64,000 nt of DNA from Neomegalonema sp. (GTDB lineage Bacteria > Pseudomonadota > Alphaproteobacteria > Rhodobacterales > Rhodobacteraceae): assembly GCA_022760355.1 (NCBI GenBank), contig JALEGB010000028.1, positions 1 through 64,000 on the forward strand. The letters run 5' to 3'. The first letter of the stretch is position 1. Every line of letters begins with the position of its first letter. The translations under genes and the position numbers were made by a program. The notes below the pieces were generated by a model. The model did not search any database and was not told the DNA's origin. It saw only the letters and a list, made by a program, of their open reading frames with translations. This document shows, in pieces, positions 8,367-56,852 of the stretch.

Positions 8367-8993
8367 ATGGTCTCCAGCCCAGCCCCAACCGCGCACAGCC
8401 CCAATCGCTCTCATATCGCAGCGGCCAACTTTCGCGCGATTTTGAACGCCCTCGCCCGCCCCGGCCGCGTCGAAACCGCGATCCCATTCCGGGCCGCGCC
8501 GGAGCCGCTTTTTCCGGCCGCCGCGGCAATCTTGACGACGCTGGTCGACACGGATGCGCCCTACTGGCTCTCGCCCCGCTTGCGGACGCCGGAGATCGAC
8601 GCCTATGCGCGGTTTGAGACTTCAGCCGCCGCCGCCCAGGATCCTGGACAGGCCGACTTTCTGTTGGGCGACTGGTCCGAGATCGCGCCCATCGCCACGG
8701 CAGGTCGGCTCCGCATCGGAACCGCCGAATATCCAGACCGCTCCGCAACGCTCATTCTGACGGTCGAGGCGCTGGCGCAAACGGCTGATGGCGGCTGCAC
8801 AGTTTGTGTAGACGGGCCCGGCGTCGAAACGCAGCACCGGTTTCAGCTCGCACTGTCTGAGCAGGCGGACGCCTTTTTCGCCTTCCTGGCGCGCAACCGC
8901 ACCGGGTTTCCGCTCGGCGTCGATGTGATCTTAACCGCGCATGACCGGCTTGTCGGTCTGCCGCGCACCGCACGCGTCATGAGGGAGGCATAA
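8367..8993 (+). CDS. phnH: PhnH, C-P lyase core complex subunit
   Basis: 208 aa, near the family's usual length (about 195). The N-terminal 'NFRAILNALARPGR' and the C-terminal 'RNRTGFPLGVDVILTA' are typical PhnH segments. PhnH has a degenerate PLP-transferase fold without PLP and caps the PhnGIJ assembly by contacting PhnI and PhnG. It lies between phnG and phnI with gaps of four bases and one base, so it is tightly co-translated. Confidence 0.95.
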   Translation: MVSSPAPTAHSPNRSHIAAANFRAILNALARPGRVETAIPFRAAPEPLFPAAAAILTTLVDTDAPYWLSPRLRTPEIDAYARFETSAAAAQDPGQADFLLGDWSEIAPIATAGRLRIGTAEYPDRSATLILTVEALAQTADGGCTVCVDGPGVETQHRFQLALSEQADAFFAFLARNRTGFPLGVDVILTAHDRLVGLPRTARVMREA

Positions 8994-8994
8994 G

Positions 8995-10104
8995 ATGTAT
9001 GTGGCGAGCAAAGGCGGCGAGAACGCGATCAACGCCGCACATAAGCTGATGGCCGAAGCGCGCCGCGGCGATCCGTCCGTCGCGGAGCTGAGCGTCGCGC
9101 AGATCCGCGAGCAGCTGCGGCTGGCTGTGGCCCGCGTCTGCGCCGAGGGGTCGCTGTATGATTTCGATCTTGGCGCGCTGGCCATCAAACAGAGCCGCGG
9201 CGATATGATCGAAGCCATCTTTTTGATGCGGGCCTATCGCGCAACCTTGCCCCGTTTTGGCTATACGCAACCGATCGATACGGCGCGCATGATGGTTGCG
9301 CGCCGGATTTCCGCAACGTTCAAGGATCTGCCGGGCGGGCAAATACTGGGGCCGACATTCGACTACACGCATCGGCTGCTGGACTTTAAACTCGCCGCCG
9401 AGGGCGGAGAAGCCGCGCCCGCGCAGACTGCGCCAGCGGACCCGACGCCGCCGCCGCATGTTCTGTCGCTGCTGAATCGAGAACAGTTGATCGAGCCCGC
9501 CGGCGTCGCCGCGCCAGAGGATCAGGCCGCGCCCCCGGATCTGACGCGCTCGCCGCTTGAGCTGCCGGCGTGCCGGGCGCTGCGCATGCAGGCCTTGGCG
9601 CGCGGCGACGAAGGTTTTCTGCTCGGACTCGCCTACTCGACCCAACGCGGCTATGCGCGCAACCACGCCTTCGTGGGCGAGCTTCGGATCGGCATGGTCG
9701 AAGTCGAGTTTGACATTCCCGAAATCGGACTGACGGTTTCCATTGGCGAGATCGAAGTGACGGAGTGCGAAACCGTCAACCAGTTCACCGGCTCCAAAAC
9801 CGAACCACCGCAATTCACCCGCGGCTACGGGCTGGCCTTTGGACAATCTGAGCGCAAAACCCTGGCCATGGCGCTGGTTGACCGCGCGCTGCGCTGGCGC
9901 GAGCTGGGCGAAGACGATCTGGGCGCCCCGGCGCAGGATGAAGAGTTTGTTCTCAGCCATGTCGACAACATCCAGGCCAGCGGCTTCCTCGAGCACATCA
10001 AGCTGCCGCACTATGTCGATTTCCAAGCCGAGCTGGAGCTGATCCGGACCCTGCGGCGAGAGGCGTTTGAGCGGCGCACGCAAAATCAGGAGGCGGCCGA
10101 ATGA
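8995..10104 (+). CDS. phnI: PhnI, C-P lyase core nucleosidase subunit
   Basis: 369 aa, the usual length. It begins MYVASKGGENAINAAHKL, a strongly conserved PhnI start. PhnI alone can act as a nucleosidase; in the complex it replaces the adenine of ATP with phosphonate to give alpha-D-ribose 1-phosphonate 5-triphosphate. The start codon follows the phnH stop by one base and the end overlaps phnJ by four bases (ATGA), giving strict coupling. A mid-protein Ala/Pro-rich stretch (about residues 135-165) is probably a surface loop. Confidence 0.96.
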   Translation: MYVASKGGENAINAAHKLMAEARRGDPSVAELSVAQIREQLRLAVARVCAEGSLYDFDLGALAIKQSRGDMIEAIFLMRAYRATLPRFGYTQPIDTARMMVARRISATFKDLPGGQILGPTFDYTHRLLDFKLAAEGGEAAPAQTAPADPTPPPHVLSLLNREQLIEPAGVAAPEDQAAPPDLTRSPLELPACRALRMQALARGDEGFLLGLAYSTQRGYARNHAFVGELRIGMVEVEFDIPEIGLTVSIGEIEVTECETVNQFTGSKTEPPQFTRGYGLAFGQSERKTLAMALVDRALRWRELGEDDLGAPAQDEEFVLSHVDNIQASGFLEHIKLPHYVDFQAELELIRTLRREAFERRTQNQEAAE

Positions 10105-10994
10105 GCGCCCAGGATCTTTCATCCGCCGCAGCGCCAGCGCCGGCAGAGGAGGAAGCGGACTACAACTTCGCTTATCTCGACGAGAACACCAAGCGCATGA
10201 TCCGTCGCGCGCTGCTGAAGGCTGTCGCGATCCCAGGCTATCAAACGCCGTTCGCCAGCCGCGAAATGCCAATGCCCTACGGGTGGGGCACGGGCGGCGT
10301 GCAGGTGACGTCGGCCTGCCTGACCGAAAGCGACAGCTTGAAGGTGATCGACCAAGGCGCTGACGATACGACCAACGCCGTCTCAATCCGAAAATTTTTC
10401 GAGCGCACGGCGCGCGTGGCGACGACGACGCGCACCGAAGAGGCGACGATCATTCAAACACGGCACCGGATCCCCGAGACGCCGCTCACGGAAAATCAGA
10501 TCCTCGTCTACCAAGTGCCGATCCCGGAGCCACTGCGCTTTTTGGAGCCGCGCGAGACCGAAACGCGGAAAATGCATGCGCTCGAAGAGTATGGGTTGAT
10601 GCATGTGAAGCTGTATGAAGATATCGCGCGCCATGGCCATATCGCCACCGCCTACGCCTATCCGGTGCAGGTGGGGCGGCGCTATGTCATGGACCCGTCG
10701 CCGATCCCCAAATTTGACAATCCGAAATTGTCAAACTGCCCAGCGCTGCAGCTGTTCGGCGCCGGGCGCGAGCAACGGATCTACGCCGTGCCACCCTATA
10801 CGGAGGCGATCAGCCTGGATTTTGAGGATCATCCATTTGATCCCGGCGGCGTGGATCAGCCCTGCGCCCTTTGCGGCGCGACCGGGGTCTATCTCGACGA
10901 AGTCATCACCGATGATCAGGGGACGCGAATGTATGTGTGCTCCGATACGGATCACTGCGAAAAAACGCGGGCGGACGCGGAGGCGGCGCAATGA
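10101..10994 (+). CDS. phnJ: PhnJ, radical SAM C-P lyase
   Basis: 297 aa. It carries the PhnJ cysteine signature C-x2-C-x21-C-x5-C near the C-terminus (CALC ... VCSDTDHC), which supplies the 4Fe-4S cluster and the thiyl-radical cysteine. It cleaves the C-P bond of ribose 1-phosphonate 5-phosphate, releasing the alkane and ribose 1,2-cyclic phosphate 5-phosphate. All four cysteines are present, so the enzyme should be active. ATGA overlaps link it to phnI upstream and phnK downstream. The N-terminus has a short Ala-rich extension relative to E. coli. Confidence 0.97.
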   Translation: MSAQDLSSAAAPAPAEEEADYNFAYLDENTKRMIRRALLKAVAIPGYQTPFASREMPMPYGWGTGGVQVTSACLTESDSLKVIDQGADDTTNAVSIRKFFERTARVATTTRTEEATIIQTRHRIPETPLTENQILVYQVPIPEPLRFLEPRETETRKMHALEEYGLMHVKLYEDIARHGHIATAYAYPVQVGRRYVMDPSPIPKFDNPKLSNCPALQLFGAGREQRIYAVPPYTEAISLDFEDHPFDPGGVDQPCALCGATGVYLDEVITDDQGTRMYVCSDTDHCEKTRADAEAAQ

Positions 10995-11782
10995 TCGGCG
11001 CGCCTTTGTTCAAACTGTCGGGCCTGACCAAGCTCTATGGCGCGCGCGTCGGATGTCGGCACGCATCTCTTGAAGTCCGCGCCGGCGAAGTCCTTGCGGT
11101 TGTCGGCGAATCCGGCTCCGGCAAATCGACGCTTCTTTCCTGCGCGTCGGGCCAGATGCTCCCGACCTCCGGCGGCGTCCTCCATGGCGCGACAAGCCCG
11201 GACGGGCGCACCGTCTGGCGTGATATTTATCAGGATCTCAGCGAGCCGGAGCGCCGCAAGCTGCTGCGCTCGGAATGGGCGTATGTACATCAGGATGCGC
11301 GCGACGGGCTGCGCATGAGCGTGAGCGCCGGCGGCAATATCGGTGAGCGGATGATGGCCGCGGGCGCCCGGCGCTACGGCGCTATTCGACGCGAGGCCGA
11401 AGCATGGCTGGCGCGGGTTGAGATTCCGACGGATCGGCTGGATGACCGCCCGACCGCATTTTCCGGCGGCATGCGTCAGCGGCTGCAAATCGCCCGCGCG
11501 CTCGCAACCGGGCCAAAATTGGTGTTCATGGATGAGCCGACCGGCGGGCTCGACGTCTCGGTGCAGGCGCGACTGTTGGATCTGGTGCGCCGCCTGGTCG
11601 CCGAATATGACTTGGCCGTGATCATCGTCACCCATGATCTCGCCGTCGCGCGGCTGCTCGCCCATCGAATGGTGGTGATGAAACAAGGCCGTATCGTCGA
11701 AAGCGGACTGACCGATCAAATCCTTGACGACCCGCTTCATCCCTACAGCCAGCTGCTGGTCAGCTCGATCCTGCAGACATGA
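10991..11782 (+). CDS. phnK: PhnK, ABC-type ATPase of the C-P lyase complex
   Basis: 263 aa. Walker A is GESGSGKST, the ABC signature SGGMRQR and Walker B LVFMDEPTGGLD. The family resembles dipeptide-transporter ATPases, but in the phn operon it docks on the PhnGHIJ core through PhnJ and is not a transporter subunit. ATG at 10991 overlaps the phnJ stop (ATGA); a longer in-frame reading to 10937 would run into phnJ. It overlaps phnL by another ATGA. Confidence 0.94.
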   Translation: MIGAPLFKLSGLTKLYGARVGCRHASLEVRAGEVLAVVGESGSGKSTLLSCASGQMLPTSGGVLHGATSPDGRTVWRDIYQDLSEPERRKLLRSEWAYVHQDARDGLRMSVSAGGNIGERMMAAGARRYGAIRREAEAWLARVEIPTDRLDDRPTAFSGGMRQRLQIARALATGPKLVFMDEPTGGLDVSVQARLLDLVRRLVAEYDLAVIIVTHDLAVARLLAHRMVVMKQGRIVESGLTDQILDDPLHPYSQLLVSSILQT

Positions 11783-12594
11783 CGCGCGGAACCTTTTCCT
11801 GGCCCCGCTTCCTGTCCCCCAAATCCAAAGGCGGCCCCATGGCGACAACACGCTCAGAACCTGATCGAACAGACGGGCGGGGACCGGTTCAGATCGATAT
11901 CTCCGGTCTCAAAAAGTCATTCCACCTCTTTGGCCAAAATGTCTCAATCCCCGTGATGGAAGGCGGGGAGCTGTGCGTTCACGCCGGCGAGTGCGTGGCG
12001 CTGATCGGTGAATCCGGCGCCGGAAAATCCACCTTGATGCGGATGATTTACGGCAATTATCGCAGCAATGGCGGCAAGATACGCGTGCGCTGCGTCGCGC
12101 AAGGCGGGCCGGAAAAATGGATTGACGTCGGCCTGCCGCATCCCCACGAAATTATTGAGATGCGGCGCGCCACCCTTGGCTATGTCTCGCAGTTCCTCCG
12201 CGTCATTCCGCGCGTCTCAACGCTCGACATCGTCGCGGAACCCGCCATCGCGGCCGGCGCCGCGCCGGAGGAGGCGGTGGCGCGGGCCAAGCAGCTGCTG
12301 TCGCGCCTACGGGTCCGCGAAACATTGTGGGGGCTTTCGCCGCTGACCTTCTCGGGCGGCGAACAGCAGCGCGTAAATATCGCCCGCGGCTTCGCGCATC
12401 GCTTTCCGATCATGCTGCTGGACGAACCGACCGCCTCCCTCGATGCGGTCAATCGCGAAACCGTCCTGCAATTGATTGAAGAGGCGCGGGACGACGGCGC
12501 GGCGATTATCGGCATCTTCCACGACTCCGCCGCGCGCGCGCGCATTTGCAGCCGAGAGATTGACGTGTCGGCCTTTACCGCGCAGGCGGCCTGA
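11779..12594 (+). CDS. phnL: PhnL, ABC-type ATPase of the C-P lyase pathway
   Basis: 271 aa with Walker A GESGAGKST, signature SGGEQQR and Walker B IMLLDEPTASLD. PhnL is required for ribose phosphonate formation and binds PhnK as a heterodimer in the purified complex. The ATG at 11779 overlaps the phnK stop. The protein is about 35-40 residues longer than typical PhnL; ATG at 11839, preceded by AAAGGCGG, would give a conventional N-terminus, so the start is uncertain. phnN follows after three bases. Confidence 0.93.
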   Translation: MTRGTFSWPRFLSPKSKGGPMATTRSEPDRTDGRGPVQIDISGLKKSFHLFGQNVSIPVMEGGELCVHAGECVALIGESGAGKSTLMRMIYGNYRSNGGKIRVRCVAQGGPEKWIDVGLPHPHEIIEMRRATLGYVSQFLRVIPRVSTLDIVAEPAIAAGAAPEEAVARAKQLLSRLRVRETLWGLSPLTFSGGEQQRVNIARGFAHRFPIMLLDEPTASLDAVNRETVLQLIEEARDDGAAIIGIFHDSAARARICSREIDVSAFTAQAA

Positions 12595-40214: not shown

Positions 40215-40787
40215 GGCCGAGACGTCAGCTTTGCGCGCCTCGATCGCGACGGCGACGCCCTTCGGTCCAGCCTTCGCTCACGCCAGGAGCCGCGCCCCAA
40301 GGCCGCCACCTCAAAAACCGGCGACGCCAACGGCCCTTGACCGTGCGGCCGCACCGCCCGCGCGCTGCTTCCTGCTCAGACAAGCCCAGAAAACGGGCTG
40401 ACAACAGTCGAATTGATGAGATGCGCCCCAGCCGCGCCGAAATCGAAGCGACCGCGTCTGGTCAACGGCCTGGTTCTTCTCGCCATGCGAGGGGGGAAGA
40501 GATGTCTTTCGCAGGAAGATCATAGACTTCCGGGCTGGAATACGGCGCCAGCATATCCTCCTTTCCCAACGCGTTCCGATGCTGGCCAGCCGCGCTGGCG
40601 TCCTGAGCGGCGATGAAAAGACCAAGTGGCGCGCCAAAAATCCGACATATCAGTCATTCATCCATACATGATCAACTTTTTGCGCGCTTTCTGATCATTT
40701 GCGTAGCAGGCAGCACTAAACATCAAGGATTTGAGGCCAGGATACGCCCATCCGAAGGAAGCGCTTATCCAGAGGGGCCGATACAAA
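40215..40787. other. Intergenic region upstream of the EAL-GGDEF gene
   Basis: No gene recognised. The left part is GC-rich and featureless apart from a small hairpin (AGCCC 40383-40387, GGGCT 40395-40399). The right part is AT-richer and carries TGATCA at 40669-40674 and 40692-40697, 23 bases apart, which could be an operator or promoter for the following gene. Confidence 0.5.
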
Positions 40788-42647
40788 ATGGTCGAGAACC
40801 ACAGCGTCGAACATCCCGAGGACGCACTCGACAGCGACTTCGCAGCCGCCTTGTTGGAACGAAAGCGGATGAGCTCGCCGATCGGCGAAGTCGACCTCTA
40901 TAGCATGAGCGTCGTACTGCAGCCGATGTATGAGCTCCGCTCAGGCGCGCTGTACGGATTTGAGGCTCTGACCAGAGGGTGGCGCGAAGCCGGACTGAAT
41001 TCGGCGCATCATTTGTTCGACTGCGCCTATGAACAGGGCGGGCTTATCGAGCTGGAAGCGCGTCAGATCGAGCTGGCGATTGAGCTCTTCGCGAAATGGC
41101 CGCATCGCGAGCAGCCGCTGCTGTTTGTCAATATAGACTCGCGCATCCTGAAAGCGCCGGCGGACTTTCTGGTGCGCATCAACCGGGCGGTTACAGCAGC
41201 GGGGATTGCGCGCCGGCAGCTATGCTTTGAACTATCCGAACGGCATGAGAAAACCGACTCGCTGGCAATTGAAAAGAACCTATCCAAGGTGCGCTCAGCA
41301 GGATACCAGGTGGGCCTTGACGAATTCGGCGCCGGTGTATCCGATATAAAAGCTCTGTACAAATATGATTTGAATTTCATAAAGGTCGGCGAATTCTTTA
41401 TTAAAAACCTGGAACGCCATCCAAGAAAGAGGTTTTTCGCCAGCAGCATGATTGAATTGGCAAAAATGCTGGGCCTTACAGTAATAGCGCCGGGCATCGA
41501 GCGTGACGAAGAGCTGGCGGCTTGTCATGAACTGCGCTTCGACGTCGGGCAAGGCTTCGCCCTTGGTGTTCCACAACCGACGATGCAAAATGTGCCAGTT
41601 AAGATTACGCCGCCAACATCCGAAGCGTCTGTACGCCTGAACAGCGATACGCTGTCACCCTATCTGATCGATCTGCCATCTCTCGATCACACGACGCCGA
41701 TGCCCGAAGTCATGATGCGGTTCGAGGACCCGAACGCCCCAGCAATATTTCCTGTCGTCGGCCCACGCAACGAACCGCTTGGCCTGCTGCGCGAGAGCGC
41801 GCTACGCACACTGGTGCATTCACCCTATGGTCGCTCACTGACGCGAAATCAGCGTTCCGGTATTAGCCTCAACCAGTTTATCGAAAAGTGCCCGATCGTC
41901 GACGTTACAACCTCCGGCAGTCATTTGGTGCAGCACTTCCTTCACGAAGGCGTTGACGGCGTTATCGTTACGTCAGACATGAGATATCTGGGCTTTTTGC
42001 CCGCGGAGAAGCTCGTTCAACTGAACGCCGCGCTGCAAACGAGAGCAGCCCGCGAGGCCAACCCGCTTACCCACCTTGGCGGAAACGGCGTCATTAACGC
42101 GTTCATCTCAGAGAGCGCCAACAATCTGAATGTCGACAGGCTATACTGCTATGTCGACTTTGATAACTTCAAGCCGTTCAATGACCGCTACGGATTTGCC
42201 GCGGGTGATCGCGCGATACTCTTGCTTTCGACCCTACTTCGCCGGTATTTTTCCGGTGGGAACTATGTTCTTGGCCATATCGGCGGCGACGATTTCTTCA
42301 TCGGCGCAACACATGCCGAGCTTTCCGAGTTTGAAGCCGCTTTACAGGAGCTGCTGACGTGTTTTGAACGCGATGCAGAGAGCCTGTACAGCCAAGAAGA
42401 TCGCGAGGCTGGCGGTCTGCGGGCCTTGGATCGCGATGGCAAGCCGCGTTTCTTTCCGCTTCTTCGTTGCAGCGCCGGGATTTTACATACGCCACCCGGT
42501 GTGGTGCTGGCGCAAGAACCGATTGCGCGCAAATTAAGCCGACTGAAAGGACGCGCTAAAGCCTCGCCAGATCGCATTATTGTCGAAACCGTCGGGGCGG
42601 CGACGGATATATCAGCGGCGGAGCGGCCTTTAGGCAATACCGCCTGA
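40788..42647 (+). CDS. EAL - CBS-like - GGDEF cyclic-di-GMP protein
   Basis: 619 aa. An N-terminal EAL domain (about 35-270) has EAL-motif E59, N115, E148, D178 and K199, but LDDFG reads LDEFG, IKID reads IKVG and the EGVE motif reads PGIE. A middle region (about 300-420) resembles a CBS pair, and a C-terminal GGDEF domain has 'DFDNFKPFND' and GGDDF (499-503). Phosphodiesterase activity is doubtful; cyclase activity is plausible. GAGGGG precedes ATG 40788. The gene is visibly less GC-rich than its flanks. Confidence 0.9.
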   Translation: MVENHSVEHPEDALDSDFAAALLERKRMSSPIGEVDLYSMSVVLQPMYELRSGALYGFEALTRGWREAGLNSAHHLFDCAYEQGGLIELEARQIELAIELFAKWPHREQPLLFVNIDSRILKAPADFLVRINRAVTAAGIARRQLCFELSERHEKTDSLAIEKNLSKVRSAGYQVGLDEFGAGVSDIKALYKYDLNFIKVGEFFIKNLERHPRKRFFASSMIELAKMLGLTVIAPGIERDEELAACHELRFDVGQGFALGVPQPTMQNVPVKITPPTSEASVRLNSDTLSPYLIDLPSLDHTTPMPEVMMRFEDPNAPAIFPVVGPRNEPLGLLRESALRTLVHSPYGRSLTRNQRSGISLNQFIEKCPIVDVTTSGSHLVQHFLHEGVDGVIVTSDMRYLGFLPAEKLVQLNAALQTRAAREANPLTHLGGNGVINAFISESANNLNVDRLYCYVDFDNFKPFNDRYGFAAGDRAILLLSTLLRRYFSGGNYVLGHIGGDDFFIGATHAELSEFEAALQELLTCFERDAESLYSQEDREAGGLRALDRDGKPRFFPLLRCSAGILHTPPGVVLAQEPIARKLSRLKGRAKASPDRIIVETVGAATDISAAERPLGNTA

Positions 42648-53232: not shown

Positions 53233-53715
53233 ATGAACGCCAGTTCTTCAGAAACGCCCGCAAGTTTGGACGAGCTCGACAGGAAAATCCTTCGAGAACT
53301 ACAGAACGATGCGACGCAATCGCTTGAATCTTTGGCGGATCGGGTCGGCTCCTCCAAGACCCCGGTATGGACCAGAATCCGGCGCATGCGCGATCAAGGC
53401 GTGATCACCCGGCAGGTCGCGCTGCTGGATCCGGACAAGGTCGGGTTCGACCATTGCTTCTTCGTGCTGGTGCGCACCTCGCGACACGAATCTGGTTGGC
53501 TGGAGGATTTCATGGCGGCTGTGCAGGAGCTGCCGGAAATTCAGGAAGCCCACCGGCTGGCGGGCGAAATCGATTATATTCTCAAGGTCCGCGTGCGCTC
53601 GACCCGGCATTTCGACGAGTTCTATAAGCGCCTCGTCGCCAAGGTCGAGATTTTCAACGTCACCTCCTTGCTGTCGATGGAGACGATGAAGATGAGCGCT
53701 TCGGTGCCGCTTTAG
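53233..53715 (+). CDS. Lrp/AsnC family transcriptional regulator
   Basis: 160 aa. N-terminal helix-turn-helix ('LDELDRKILRELQNDATQSL', 'VGSSKTPVWTRIRRMRDQGV') and a C-terminal RAM ligand domain ('EIQEAHRLAGEIDYILKVRV'). Divergent from the cysG operon, the likely target; ligand could be a sulfur amino acid by analogy, not shown. Confidence 0.93.
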   Translation: MNASSSETPASLDELDRKILRELQNDATQSLESLADRVGSSKTPVWTRIRRMRDQGVITRQVALLDPDKVGFDHCFFVLVRTSRHESGWLEDFMAAVQELPEIQEAHRLAGEIDYILKVRVRSTRHFDEFYKRLVAKVEIFNVTSLLSMETMKMSASVPL

Positions 53716-53811
53716 GCCGCCAGCTCATAAATCCGGCGGCGTCAGCTGCGCTTGACGATTGGGCGAGCCGTCAAACGAACGGCGCGTCCGCTCCTAACCT
53801 TGGAGAGCGCG

Positions 53812-54360
53812 TCAAGCCGCCTGCTGGACGGCGACGTCAAAGATGATCGACGCCCGCTCGCCCTCTTGCCGGCGCTGCGTCCGCACCTCGACCTTATCGC
53901 CATAATGGCGCGCCGCTTCGGTGAACAGGCCGGTGGCGATATATTCCAGCCGACGGCAGTGATCGTAGCTCAGACGCACGGCGCGGGAGTCGCGCTCCAA
54001 CACATCAACCTTCGGCGCATCGTTTGGATAGAGGCCGCGCAGCATTTCGTGCAGCTTGCCGTCAATCGCCGTCAGCAGATCCAGCACATTGTCATACGCG
54101 CAGAAGAACTGAGGATCCGCTTCGGAGAAGCGCCGGCCGAGATGGCGGCCAAAGGCGTTCAGCAGCGCGCGGTGGGAGATTTCCGCAACCCCGGCCGCGG
54201 CGGAGACCAGCGCGGTCATCTCGCTGAACTGATATGCCCCATCGCGGACATAGTAGCCGCCGCTCGGGGCGTTGGCGGCGCTCAGTACGTCTTCCAGCGC
54301 GTCGCTGCCATACTGATCACCGAAAAAGTCGAGAAATTCGTTGAATACCAGGCCGTACAT
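53812..54360 (-). CDS. H-NOX-like haem-binding sensor
   Basis: 182 aa, the length of a free-standing H-NOX. 'MYGLVFNEFLDFFGDQYGSD' starts the fold; His104 in 'GKLHEML' fits the proximal haem ligand. The propionate-binding YxSxR motif reads Y132-D-H134-C-R136, so the Ser is His. H-NOX proteins bind NO or O2 and signal to histidine kinases or cyclic-di-GMP enzymes; no such partner is adjacent. ATG 54360 chosen after AGGTGAG. Haem binding is inferred. Confidence 0.78.
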   Translation of the reverse strand: MYGLVFNEFLDFFGDQYGSDALEDVLSAANAPSGGYYVRDGAYQFSEMTALVSAAAGVAEISHRALLNAFGRHLGRRFSEADPQFFCAYDNVLDLLTAIDGKLHEMLRGLYPNDAPKVDVLERDSRAVRLSYDHCRRLEYIATGLFTEAARHYGDKVEVRTQRRQEGERASIIFDVAVQQAA

Positions 54361-54664
54361 CGAGCTCACCTATTTGCGTTTTGTTGCAATCAAGGATGCC
54401 CGTGCGCCATTAACGGCCGTAAAAGAGAGCTGGTTAAAAGCTAAACACCGTCCGGTGGATTAGTTCAAATCTAATCTATTCCGCATGGAGCGACGACGGA
54501 TGTCGCCCTCAGCGCGTTTGCTCGGTATCCGCATCGTGAGGCTCGCCGCTAAGGAGCGAGGAAAGCATTCGACGCTCCTCGGCCCGCATCCGGGTGGCGC
54601 GCGCATACCGTCAGCCCTTCTGCTCCACCCCTCTCAGCTCGCCTCAAACCGCCGCAGCGACGCA
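54361..54664. other. Intergenic region upstream of the H-NOX gene
   Basis: About 300 bases with no gene recognised. It carries a perfect inverted repeat, GATTAG at 54458-54463 and CTAATC at 54471-54476, about 100 bases upstream of the H-NOX start in an AT-richer patch. This could be an operator. Confidence 0.4.
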
Positions 54665-55735
54665 TCAATCCCGCCGCACCTCTTCATTTGGCGTCGCATA
54701 GAACTCCTCAAACGCCGCAACCACCGCTTGCTCGCCGGCGTCATCGACGTCTCGATGCACCACGAGACGGCTCTCCCCCGGATGAAGGCTCAAGGCGACG
54801 CCTTGGGCCGCCGCATAGTCCCGCAGCGGCGCGCAATCCGCATCGGCGATCTGCGGGAAGATCATGTTCGTCTCCACCGCAGACAGATCGACCGCGAGCC
54901 CCTCGATCGCCGCCAGACGCTGCGCGATGCGTTTGGCGCGCGCGTGATCCTCCTCCAGCCGCTCAACTAAATTTTCCAACGCAAACAGCCCCGCAGCGGC
55001 GATCACGCCAACCTGCCGCATCCCGCCGCCCAGCATCTTGCGATAGCGCCGCGCCTTGGCGATCGTCTCCCGATCGCCCACCAGAACCGACCCGACCGGC
55101 GCGCCCAGCCCCTTGGAGAGGCAGATCGAAATACTGTCAAACGGCGCCGCCAGCGCCGCCGGCTCCACGCCGAGCGCCGTTGCCGCATTGAAGAACCGCG
55201 CCCCATCCAAATGCGCGCGCAGCCCCGCCGCCCGCGCCGCGGTCACCGCCGCGTCAATCTCCGCCAGGCTCTGAACGCGACCGTAAAAGCTGTTCTCCAG
55301 GCACAGCAAACGCGAGATCGGGAAGTGCGGATCATCCGGCTTAACCGCCGCCGCGATGGTTTCACGGGAGATCGCGCCGTTCGCCGCCTGCTCCAACGGC
55401 GCCACAGCGACCCCGCCGAGCACCGCCGAACCCAAGCCCTCATAGCGAAAGATGTGATTGCGCCGCCCGATCAGCGCCTCCTCCCCTCGGCCGCAATGGC
55501 TGAGCACGCCGAGCAGATTGGTCTGGGTGCCGCTCGGGGCGAAGATCGCCGCTTCCTTGCCCAGCATCTCAGCCGCCAACGCCTCCAACCGCGCGACGGT
55601 CGGGTCCTCGCCATAGACGTCGTCGCCCACCTCCGCCGCAGCCATCGCCGCGCGCATCGAATCGCAGGGTTTCGTCACCGTATCACTGCGCAGATCAGCC
55701 ACGATTGCGTGCGTGCGGCTTTCGAGATCGTACAT
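54665..55735 (-). CDS. ltaE: Low-specificity L-threonine aldolase
   Basis: 356 aa, fold-I PLP enzyme. 'LRSDTVTKP', '[16 protein letters not shown]', '[10 protein letters not shown]' and the PLP lysine in '[13 protein letters not shown]' match threonine aldolase. It cleaves threonine (or allo-threonine) to glycine and acetaldehyde. Divergent from moaA. Confidence 0.93.
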
Positions 55736-55832: not shown

Positions 55833-56852
55833 ATGGACGCGACCGCGCCAAAGCTGATCGACCCGTTCGCCCGCGCGATTGAGTATCTGCGCGTATCCGT
55901 GACGGACCGCTGCGACCTGCGCTGCGTCTATTGCATGGCCGAGCATATGACCTTCCTGCCGAAGAAGGAGCTGCTGACGTTGGAGGAGCTGGACCGGCTG
56001 TGCTCGATCTTCATCTCCCTCGGCGTAAAAAAGCTGCGCATCACCGGCGGCGAGCCGCTGGTCCGACGCGAGGTGATGACCTTCTTCCGATCCATCGGCC
56101 GCCATCTGGACACCGGCGCGCTGGAGGAGCTGACGCTCACCAGCAACGGCACGCTGCTGCGCCGGCACGCAGAGGCGCTCGCAGCCGCCGGGGTGAAACG
56201 GATCAATGTTTCGCTGGATACGCTGGACGCCGCGAAATTCGCCGAAGTGACGCGCTGGGGACGGCTCGGACAAGTGTTGGATGGGCTGGATGCAGCCGCC
56301 GACGCAGGGCTGCGGATCAAAATCAACTGCGTGGCGCTGAAGGGGTTCAATGATGTCGAAGTCCATCAGATCGTCGAATGGTGCGGCGCGCGCGGCTACG
56401 ACTTGACCTTTATCGAAGTGATGCCAATGGGCGAGATCGGCGAGGGGGACGCGGCGCGGCTGGATCAATATTGGTCCGTCAAAGATCTGCGCGCGGAGCT
56501 GGAGACGCGTTGGCGGCTGGAGGATATCCCGTTCCGCACCGGCGGCCCCGCTCGCTATGTGCGCAATGAAGATACGGGCATGAAGATTGGCTTCATCACG
56601 CCGCTGACGCATAATTTCTGCGAGAGCTGTAATCGCGTCCGGCTGACCTGCACGGGCGAACTGTTTATGTGCCTCGGCCAGGAAGACCGCGCCGATCTGC
56701 GCACGCCGCTGCGAGACGGCTCCAGCGATGAGGAGGTGGCGGACGCCATCCGCGCCGCGATCGCCCGCAAACCGAAGGGCCATGATTTCGACTATTCACG
56801 CCAGTCGGTCGCCGGCCGAATGTCCCGCCATATGAGCCACACCGGCGGCTGA
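55833..56852 (+). CDS. moaA: GTP 3',8-cyclase (MoaA)
   Basis: 339 aa radical SAM enzyme. The first cluster is CDLRCVYC (CxxxCxxC), the second is [18 protein letters not shown], and the C-terminus ends in GG as required for catalysis. It converts GTP to the cyclic pyranopterin precursor for molybdenum cofactor. AAGGAGG lies before ATG 55833. No other moa gene is in the window. Confidence 0.96.

Follow-up and report, generated by a model that had tools for sequence, protein, structure and literature searches.

A divergent stand-alone H-NOX with histidine in place of the YxSxR serine in a Neomegalonema sp. genome

In haem-binding H-NOX proteins the haem propionates are stabilised by a YxSxR motif (PMC8196705, excerpt), which in sGC consists of Y135, S137 and R139 (PMC3212528, excerpt). 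The H-NOX domain of sGC alpha is without haem, and this had been assumed, before new structures appeared, to be due to the missing ligand His in the human protein and to the missing motif in that of the moth (PMC8196705, excerpt). On the ligand side, Tyr140 of the Thermoanaerobacter tengcongensis (Tt) H-NOX is the distal Tyr that stabilises O2 (PMC12329717, excerpt), and in the group 5 HNOB proteins the ligand His is mostly replaced by Pro (PMC8738867, excerpt). A search of the literature, with most subscription journals outside its reach and hence weak evidence of absence, returned neither an H-NOX variant with His for Ser in titles and abstract openings nor a measured effect of changing the YxSxR Ser. 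A natural protein lacking just this residue of the motif would be a direct test of the role of Ser, be it in haem retention or in the coupling of haem movement to signalling.

Here we describe a gene for such a protein in a stretch of 64,000 nucleotides of a Neomegalonema sp. contig (JALEGB010000028.1), the whole of which is called the window. A preliminary description had placed an orphan H-NOX gene at 53812-54360; the coordinates were right, and the gene lies on the minus strand. It is a stand-alone H-NOX (HNOB) gene of 182 codons for amino acids, recognised from its ORF, Pfam match, codons and predicted structure, with the start ATG at 54360 (an in-frame GTG lies at 54369) and the stop codon at 53814-53812. 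The H-NOX identity was borne out as well: Pfam HNOB (PF07700) matches residues 2-160 with 91.4 bits (E=7.6e-26; curated cut-off 25.5 bits), and the best solved relatives found by phmmer are H-NOX proteins (6bde, E 2e-20; 6ocv, E 7e-15), while the NCBIfam models gave no match to the protein. The AlphaFold (AF2) model, built without haem from an input alignment of 58 sequences, is a confident H-NOX fold (mean pLDDT 92.0, pTM 0.86), whose best Foldseek match is the Kordia algicida H-NOX 6bdd (E 3.8e-14) and which superposes in VIA-align on 6bde with Z 23.5 and an rmsd of 2.4 over 179 residues at 22% identity. The structural neighbours from both programs are the H-NOX proteins of K. algicida, Nostoc, T. 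tengcongensis and S. oneidensis and the sGC beta subunit. By profile and predicted fold, the window protein is a member of the HNOB family with an incomplete haem motif. Since the family match belongs to the minus-strand frame, a larger plus-strand frame on the same DNA (53752-54444) was read as a shadow frame such as GC-rich genes give.

The codon of His104 (CAC), the predicted proximal haem ligand, occupies 54049-54051 on the minus strand, and those of the altered motif, Tyr132 (TAC), Asp133 (GAT), His134 (CAC, 53959-53961), Cys135 (TGC) and Arg136 (CGT), occupy 53953-53967, all coordinates being calculated from the ATG at 54360; Pro116 is CCG. The complete YxSxR propionate motif is therefore missing, Tyr and Arg being kept and Ser replaced by His (YDHCR). 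His104, Tyr132 and Arg136, as named in the preliminary description, are confirmed at the codon level, and the exchange of Ser for His that it had pointed out is real and rare; since a change from a Ser codon to CAC takes two base changes, a single sequencing error fails to explain it. In an enlarged alignment Ser stands at column 134 in all 170 other H-NOX sequences with His104 and Tyr132, which are related sequences rather than independent draws and were all selected for these two residues; in the first comparison set alone, it does so in 82 of 82 rows with His, Tyr and Arg and in 96 of 96 rows with Tyr. Arg136 is kept in 160 of the 170, so that in this sample Arg is more variable than Ser. 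The first set comprises 133 distinct rows among the matches listed from an HNOB profile search of genomes, and the second 80 loci retained out of 205 confirmed ones; the search patterns for the second set were derived from the window protein and two relatives, so that it is biased towards them. Left out of the 170 were first-set rows without His104 and Tyr132 (among them 36 Tyr-less rows), the duplicate L172, L193, with another residue aligned at the ligand column, and the spurious fragment L237_10.

The ligand column of His104 is invariant in one alignment (A1) and conserved to at least 90% in another (A3). At columns conserved to at least 95% the window protein keeps eight of nine residues, the sole loss being Ser134, and at those conserved to at least 80% it keeps 24 of 32, having lost K2, T38, V40, E106, V107, K109, L115 and S134; three of these changes (E106M, V107L and K109G) affect highly conserved residues beside the proximal His. 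As judged from the sequence, the protein has diverged strongly overall but retains its haem-ligand side, with a single change at the haem edge; conserved glycines are also among the residues kept. The retention of eight of nine columns despite ~26-40% identity to the listed relatives argues for selection on the haem site. Another altered haem motif is found in a relative from the same family, L028 (G124:C1:1860589-1860951), in which the motif reads YSSEE, with Glu for Arg; this sequence has a very long branch of its own (3.13) and was matched by the search only in its second half.

Column 141, which we take to correspond to Tt Tyr140 with the Arg and a Gly as anchors, holds Ile in the window protein; Tyr is found there in none of the 170 relatives, which carry Leu, Phe, Val, Met, Ile or Ala. 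The protein should not bind O2, because Ile141 leaves it without a distal Tyr. The preliminary description had offered a different ligand chemistry as one reading, but NO-selective behaviour is the plain expectation, since the altered motif contacts the haem propionates and not the ligand side and the distal residue is Ile. The protein probably still binds haem and is NO-selective. The haem-free H-NOX of V. cholerae is served by a three-Cys zinc redox site. In the window protein Cys occurs only at 87 and 135, and the three-Cys zinc/redox site of H-NOX groups 2-4 is absent; the zinc-ligating Cys residues of the S. oneidensis H-NOX are 139, 164 and 172 (PMC7108781, excerpt).

Tyr is lacking in 36 of the 133 aligned HNOB rows, of which 8 keep the ligand His and 28 miss it, with Pro in its place in 23. 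The preliminary description had considered a haem-free family in which His would be common at position 134; among the Tyr-less rows His occurs there in 2 of 36, and the column varies freely. This Tyr-less, mostly His-less HNOB type (L108-L140, for example) is very common in the same bacterial family and resembles group 5 (PMC8738867, excerpt).

The organism's own genome showed just two HNOB matches, neither of this type. A second HNOB gene, outside the window (C76:10806-11381), has the canonical motif YCSCR and overlaps at its 3' end a gene with GGDEF (93 bits) and EAL (217 bits) domains. Of the two H-NOX loci in the genome, this one (L038:10803-12909) is the standard NO/c-di-GMP pair. The genome is 97% complete; in it NirS had no match and NirK had sub-threshold matches only (38 bits against a cut-off of 296); an internal, denitrification source of NO was thus not found in the genome, and the NO may be external. 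The genome also carries two haem-copper oxidase genes, read from their sequences as aa3 and cbb3 types.

Close homologues were sought widely. When 84,980 species genomes were scanned with the single protein, 98 stretches were matched but no relative was among them, and further searches gave matches in 4 of 61, 27 of 248 and 9 of 385 genomes (the own genome being in each count), with a best identity of 33% in another genome. Plasmid records yielded 14 matches (best identity 28.5%), and the Pfam profile found HNOB in 295 of 394 genomes of the same family and in 103 of 398 of the phylum. The nearest relatives are H-NOX proteins of Methylobacterium, Methylorubrum and Lichenifustis, with 38-40% identity by tblastn and 35-39% in the alignment, and no sequence above ~40% identity was found in the searches made. 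Because no close homologue was found in the other species searched, conservation over time cannot be shown.

In the trees the end branch of the window protein measures 2.5-3.5 changes per column, where the median branch has 0.5-0.7; it is thus 3.5 to 7 times as long. A position with the canonical clade of its own genome was not rejected in the 40-row tree (p-AU 0.385), nor in another tree (0.456). In the 40-row tree, constraining it to group with three other H-NOX proteins of the same family raised the likelihood by 6.69 over that of the free search (p-AU 0.627), which means that the free search had missed the best tree. The nearest row was L078 in the 92-row tree and in the first 79-row tree; in the second 79-row tree the protein joined L171 (support 40/0), both being part of a set of 14 rows (96/86) in which the Methylobacterium-type rows are also found. 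The inferred position thus varies between trees, and a duplication of the resident copy is not claimed. To judge from these comparisons, the orphan H-NOX is an unusual variant of a familiar haem-based NO sensor, a fast-evolving second copy known from one genome.

The absence of an adjacent kinase or cyclase, remarked in the preliminary description, agrees with the Pfam scan of the neighbours, in which no kinase, GGDEF or EAL gene adjoins the H-NOX gene. The upstream neighbour, separated by a gap of ~295 nt (54370-54664), is a same-strand gene of the threonine-aldolase type (beta-eliminating lyase in Pfam); downstream there is a convergent Lrp/AsnC gene followed by cysG, DUF2849 and sulphite reductase genes; MoaA and gamma-glutamyltranspeptidase were the other neighbours scanned. 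No promoter-like consensus was found in the gap, no terminator-like site in 53600-54800 and no FNR/NnrR-type box (at most one mismatch) less than 2 kb from the gene, the closest one lying at 56403; the total of such boxes in the window is within the range of shuffled sequences (8 of 100 shuffles as high). At 12 threonine-aldolase loci of other genomes, neither an H-NOX nor this Lrp gene was found within ~1.5 kb (0 of 12). Elsewhere in the window, 8977-12594 has the look of what is presumably a phosphonate-degradation cluster (phn C-P lyase type). Scanning the entire window for motifs turned up a sole GGDEF/EAL frame, at 40731-42647, with an EAL domain of 145 bits and a GGDEF domain of 35 bits. 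Its EAL motif reads DEFGAG, the usual form being DDFGTG, and the other domain reads GGDDF; the activity of either domain is uncertain.

Partnerless H-NOX genes are uncommon in this sample. For 92 other first-set genes with His104 and Tyr132, crude motif counts, with flanks of 1.5 kb for many, placed HisKA or GGDEF motifs in a frame downstream in 63 cases and showed another long frame in 27 and none in 2. Around the 80 loci of the second set, histidine kinase, GGDEF or EAL motifs were found nearby in 45; 12 loci without a motif had short flanks, and 23 had full flanks and no motif hit. At 21 of these 23, a same-strand frame of 439-788 amino acids either shares sequence with the 3' end of the H-NOX gene or begins no more than ~15 nt from it (at the remaining two, the frame is antisense in L183 and was not placed in L204). 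Ten of the 21 frames were scanned against Pfam and are read as histidine kinases because all ten match HATPase_c and eight exceed the HisKA cut-off.

We consider that there is about an even chance that the window gene encodes a divergent, stand-alone second H-NOX, a haem-based NO sensor that signals in trans, perhaps to the canonical pair's GGDEF-EAL enzyme. Points against it are that neither an internal NO source nor a close homologue in other species was found in the searches. The loss of one invariant haem-edge residue and the long end branch also speak against it, and these two lend some weight to the main rival, a possible though doubtful one, by which the H-NOX is losing its haem: the fold would be kept as an interaction module with haem weakly bound or absent, as in sGC alpha or group 5 HNOB. 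The Ser of all 170 relatives is indeed gone, the branch is long and HNOB proteins without haem residues are common, the 36 Tyr-less rows, 23 of them with Pro, matching group 5 (PMC8738867, excerpt). However, His104, Pro116, Tyr132 and Arg136 are all kept, whereas the ligand His is present in just 8 of the 36 rows without Tyr; the fold is intact in the AF2 model, itself without haem, and the three-Cys redox site is absent. The long branch, the missing partner gene and the lack of a close homologue in the relatives searched would equally suit a redundant second copy under relaxed selection and heading for loss, but we regard this as unlikely in view of the open frame, of a GC3 (0.77) like that of the neighbours and of the conserved columns kept (24 of 32 and 8 of 9 at the two thresholds).

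Two further readings concern what the protein would do. The preliminary description had proposed as partner the EAL-GGDEF protein at ~40.8-42.6 kb, and enzymes of this kind, here with EAL and GGDEF domains, are often under H-NOX control (PMC8738867, excerpt); the frame is nevertheless on the other strand at a distance of 11 kb, a crude ORF picker puts 14 frames in between, and the canonical H-NOX/GGDEF-EAL pair at C76 offers a better candidate, so that the proposal is unsupported and highly improbable. It is also decidedly unlikely that His134, together with Asp133, Arg137, E106M and K109G, defines a novel H-NOX type. In such a type an ionisable haem-edge His would make the hold on haem, or the response to NO, depend on pH or redox state, and the protein would have no dedicated partner; it might, for instance, serve the canonical system as a decoy or modulator.

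For the NO sensor acting in trans, the mechanism would be as follows. Haem would be bound through His104, with His134, which could still hydrogen-bond a propionate, taking over the contact of the Ser to the haem propionate. Without a distal Tyr, O2 would be excluded and NO (and CO) bound; NO binding would release His104 and rotate the two subdomains, and this would alter the binding to an effector from another locus. If a single effector is to be named, the GGDEF-EAL enzyme of the canonical pair would be the likeliest, the orphan competing with or tuning the canonical sensor. Against this, E106M, V107L and K109G may have altered the surface that meets the partner, which might then no longer suit the canonical one.

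There is a precedent in S. degradans for an H-NOX whose partner is encoded at a distance: SDE_3557 is listed with the kinase SDE_3803, which is also given for SDE_3804 (PMC8738867, excerpt, Table 1), so that one H-NOX is listed with the partner of another, as proposed for the window H-NOX; the S. degradans partner is a histidine kinase and the proposed one a GGDEF-EAL enzyme. The group 5 HNOB proteins belong to the same Pfam family, but the rows taken for this group are without Tyr and mostly without the ligand His, both of which the window protein keeps. The K. algicida H-NOX (6bdd/6bde), the closest solved structure, has Ser in the motif according to the alignment, where the window protein has His. 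The canonical copy at C76, 30% identical, shares with the window protein the proximal His, the Tyr, the Arg and the Cys before the Arg, and it has the motif Ser and an overlapping GGDEF-EAL gene, whereas the window H-NOX has neither. Finally, the Methylobacteriaceae/Lichenihabitantaceae H-NOX proteins (L161, L162, L164 and L174) stand on the same branch as the window protein in the 40-row tree (98/94); unlike it, all four are followed by a frame with GGDEF-domain motifs (in L174 only the DxDxFK core was seen), and their motif is YxSCR, that of the window protein being YDHCR.
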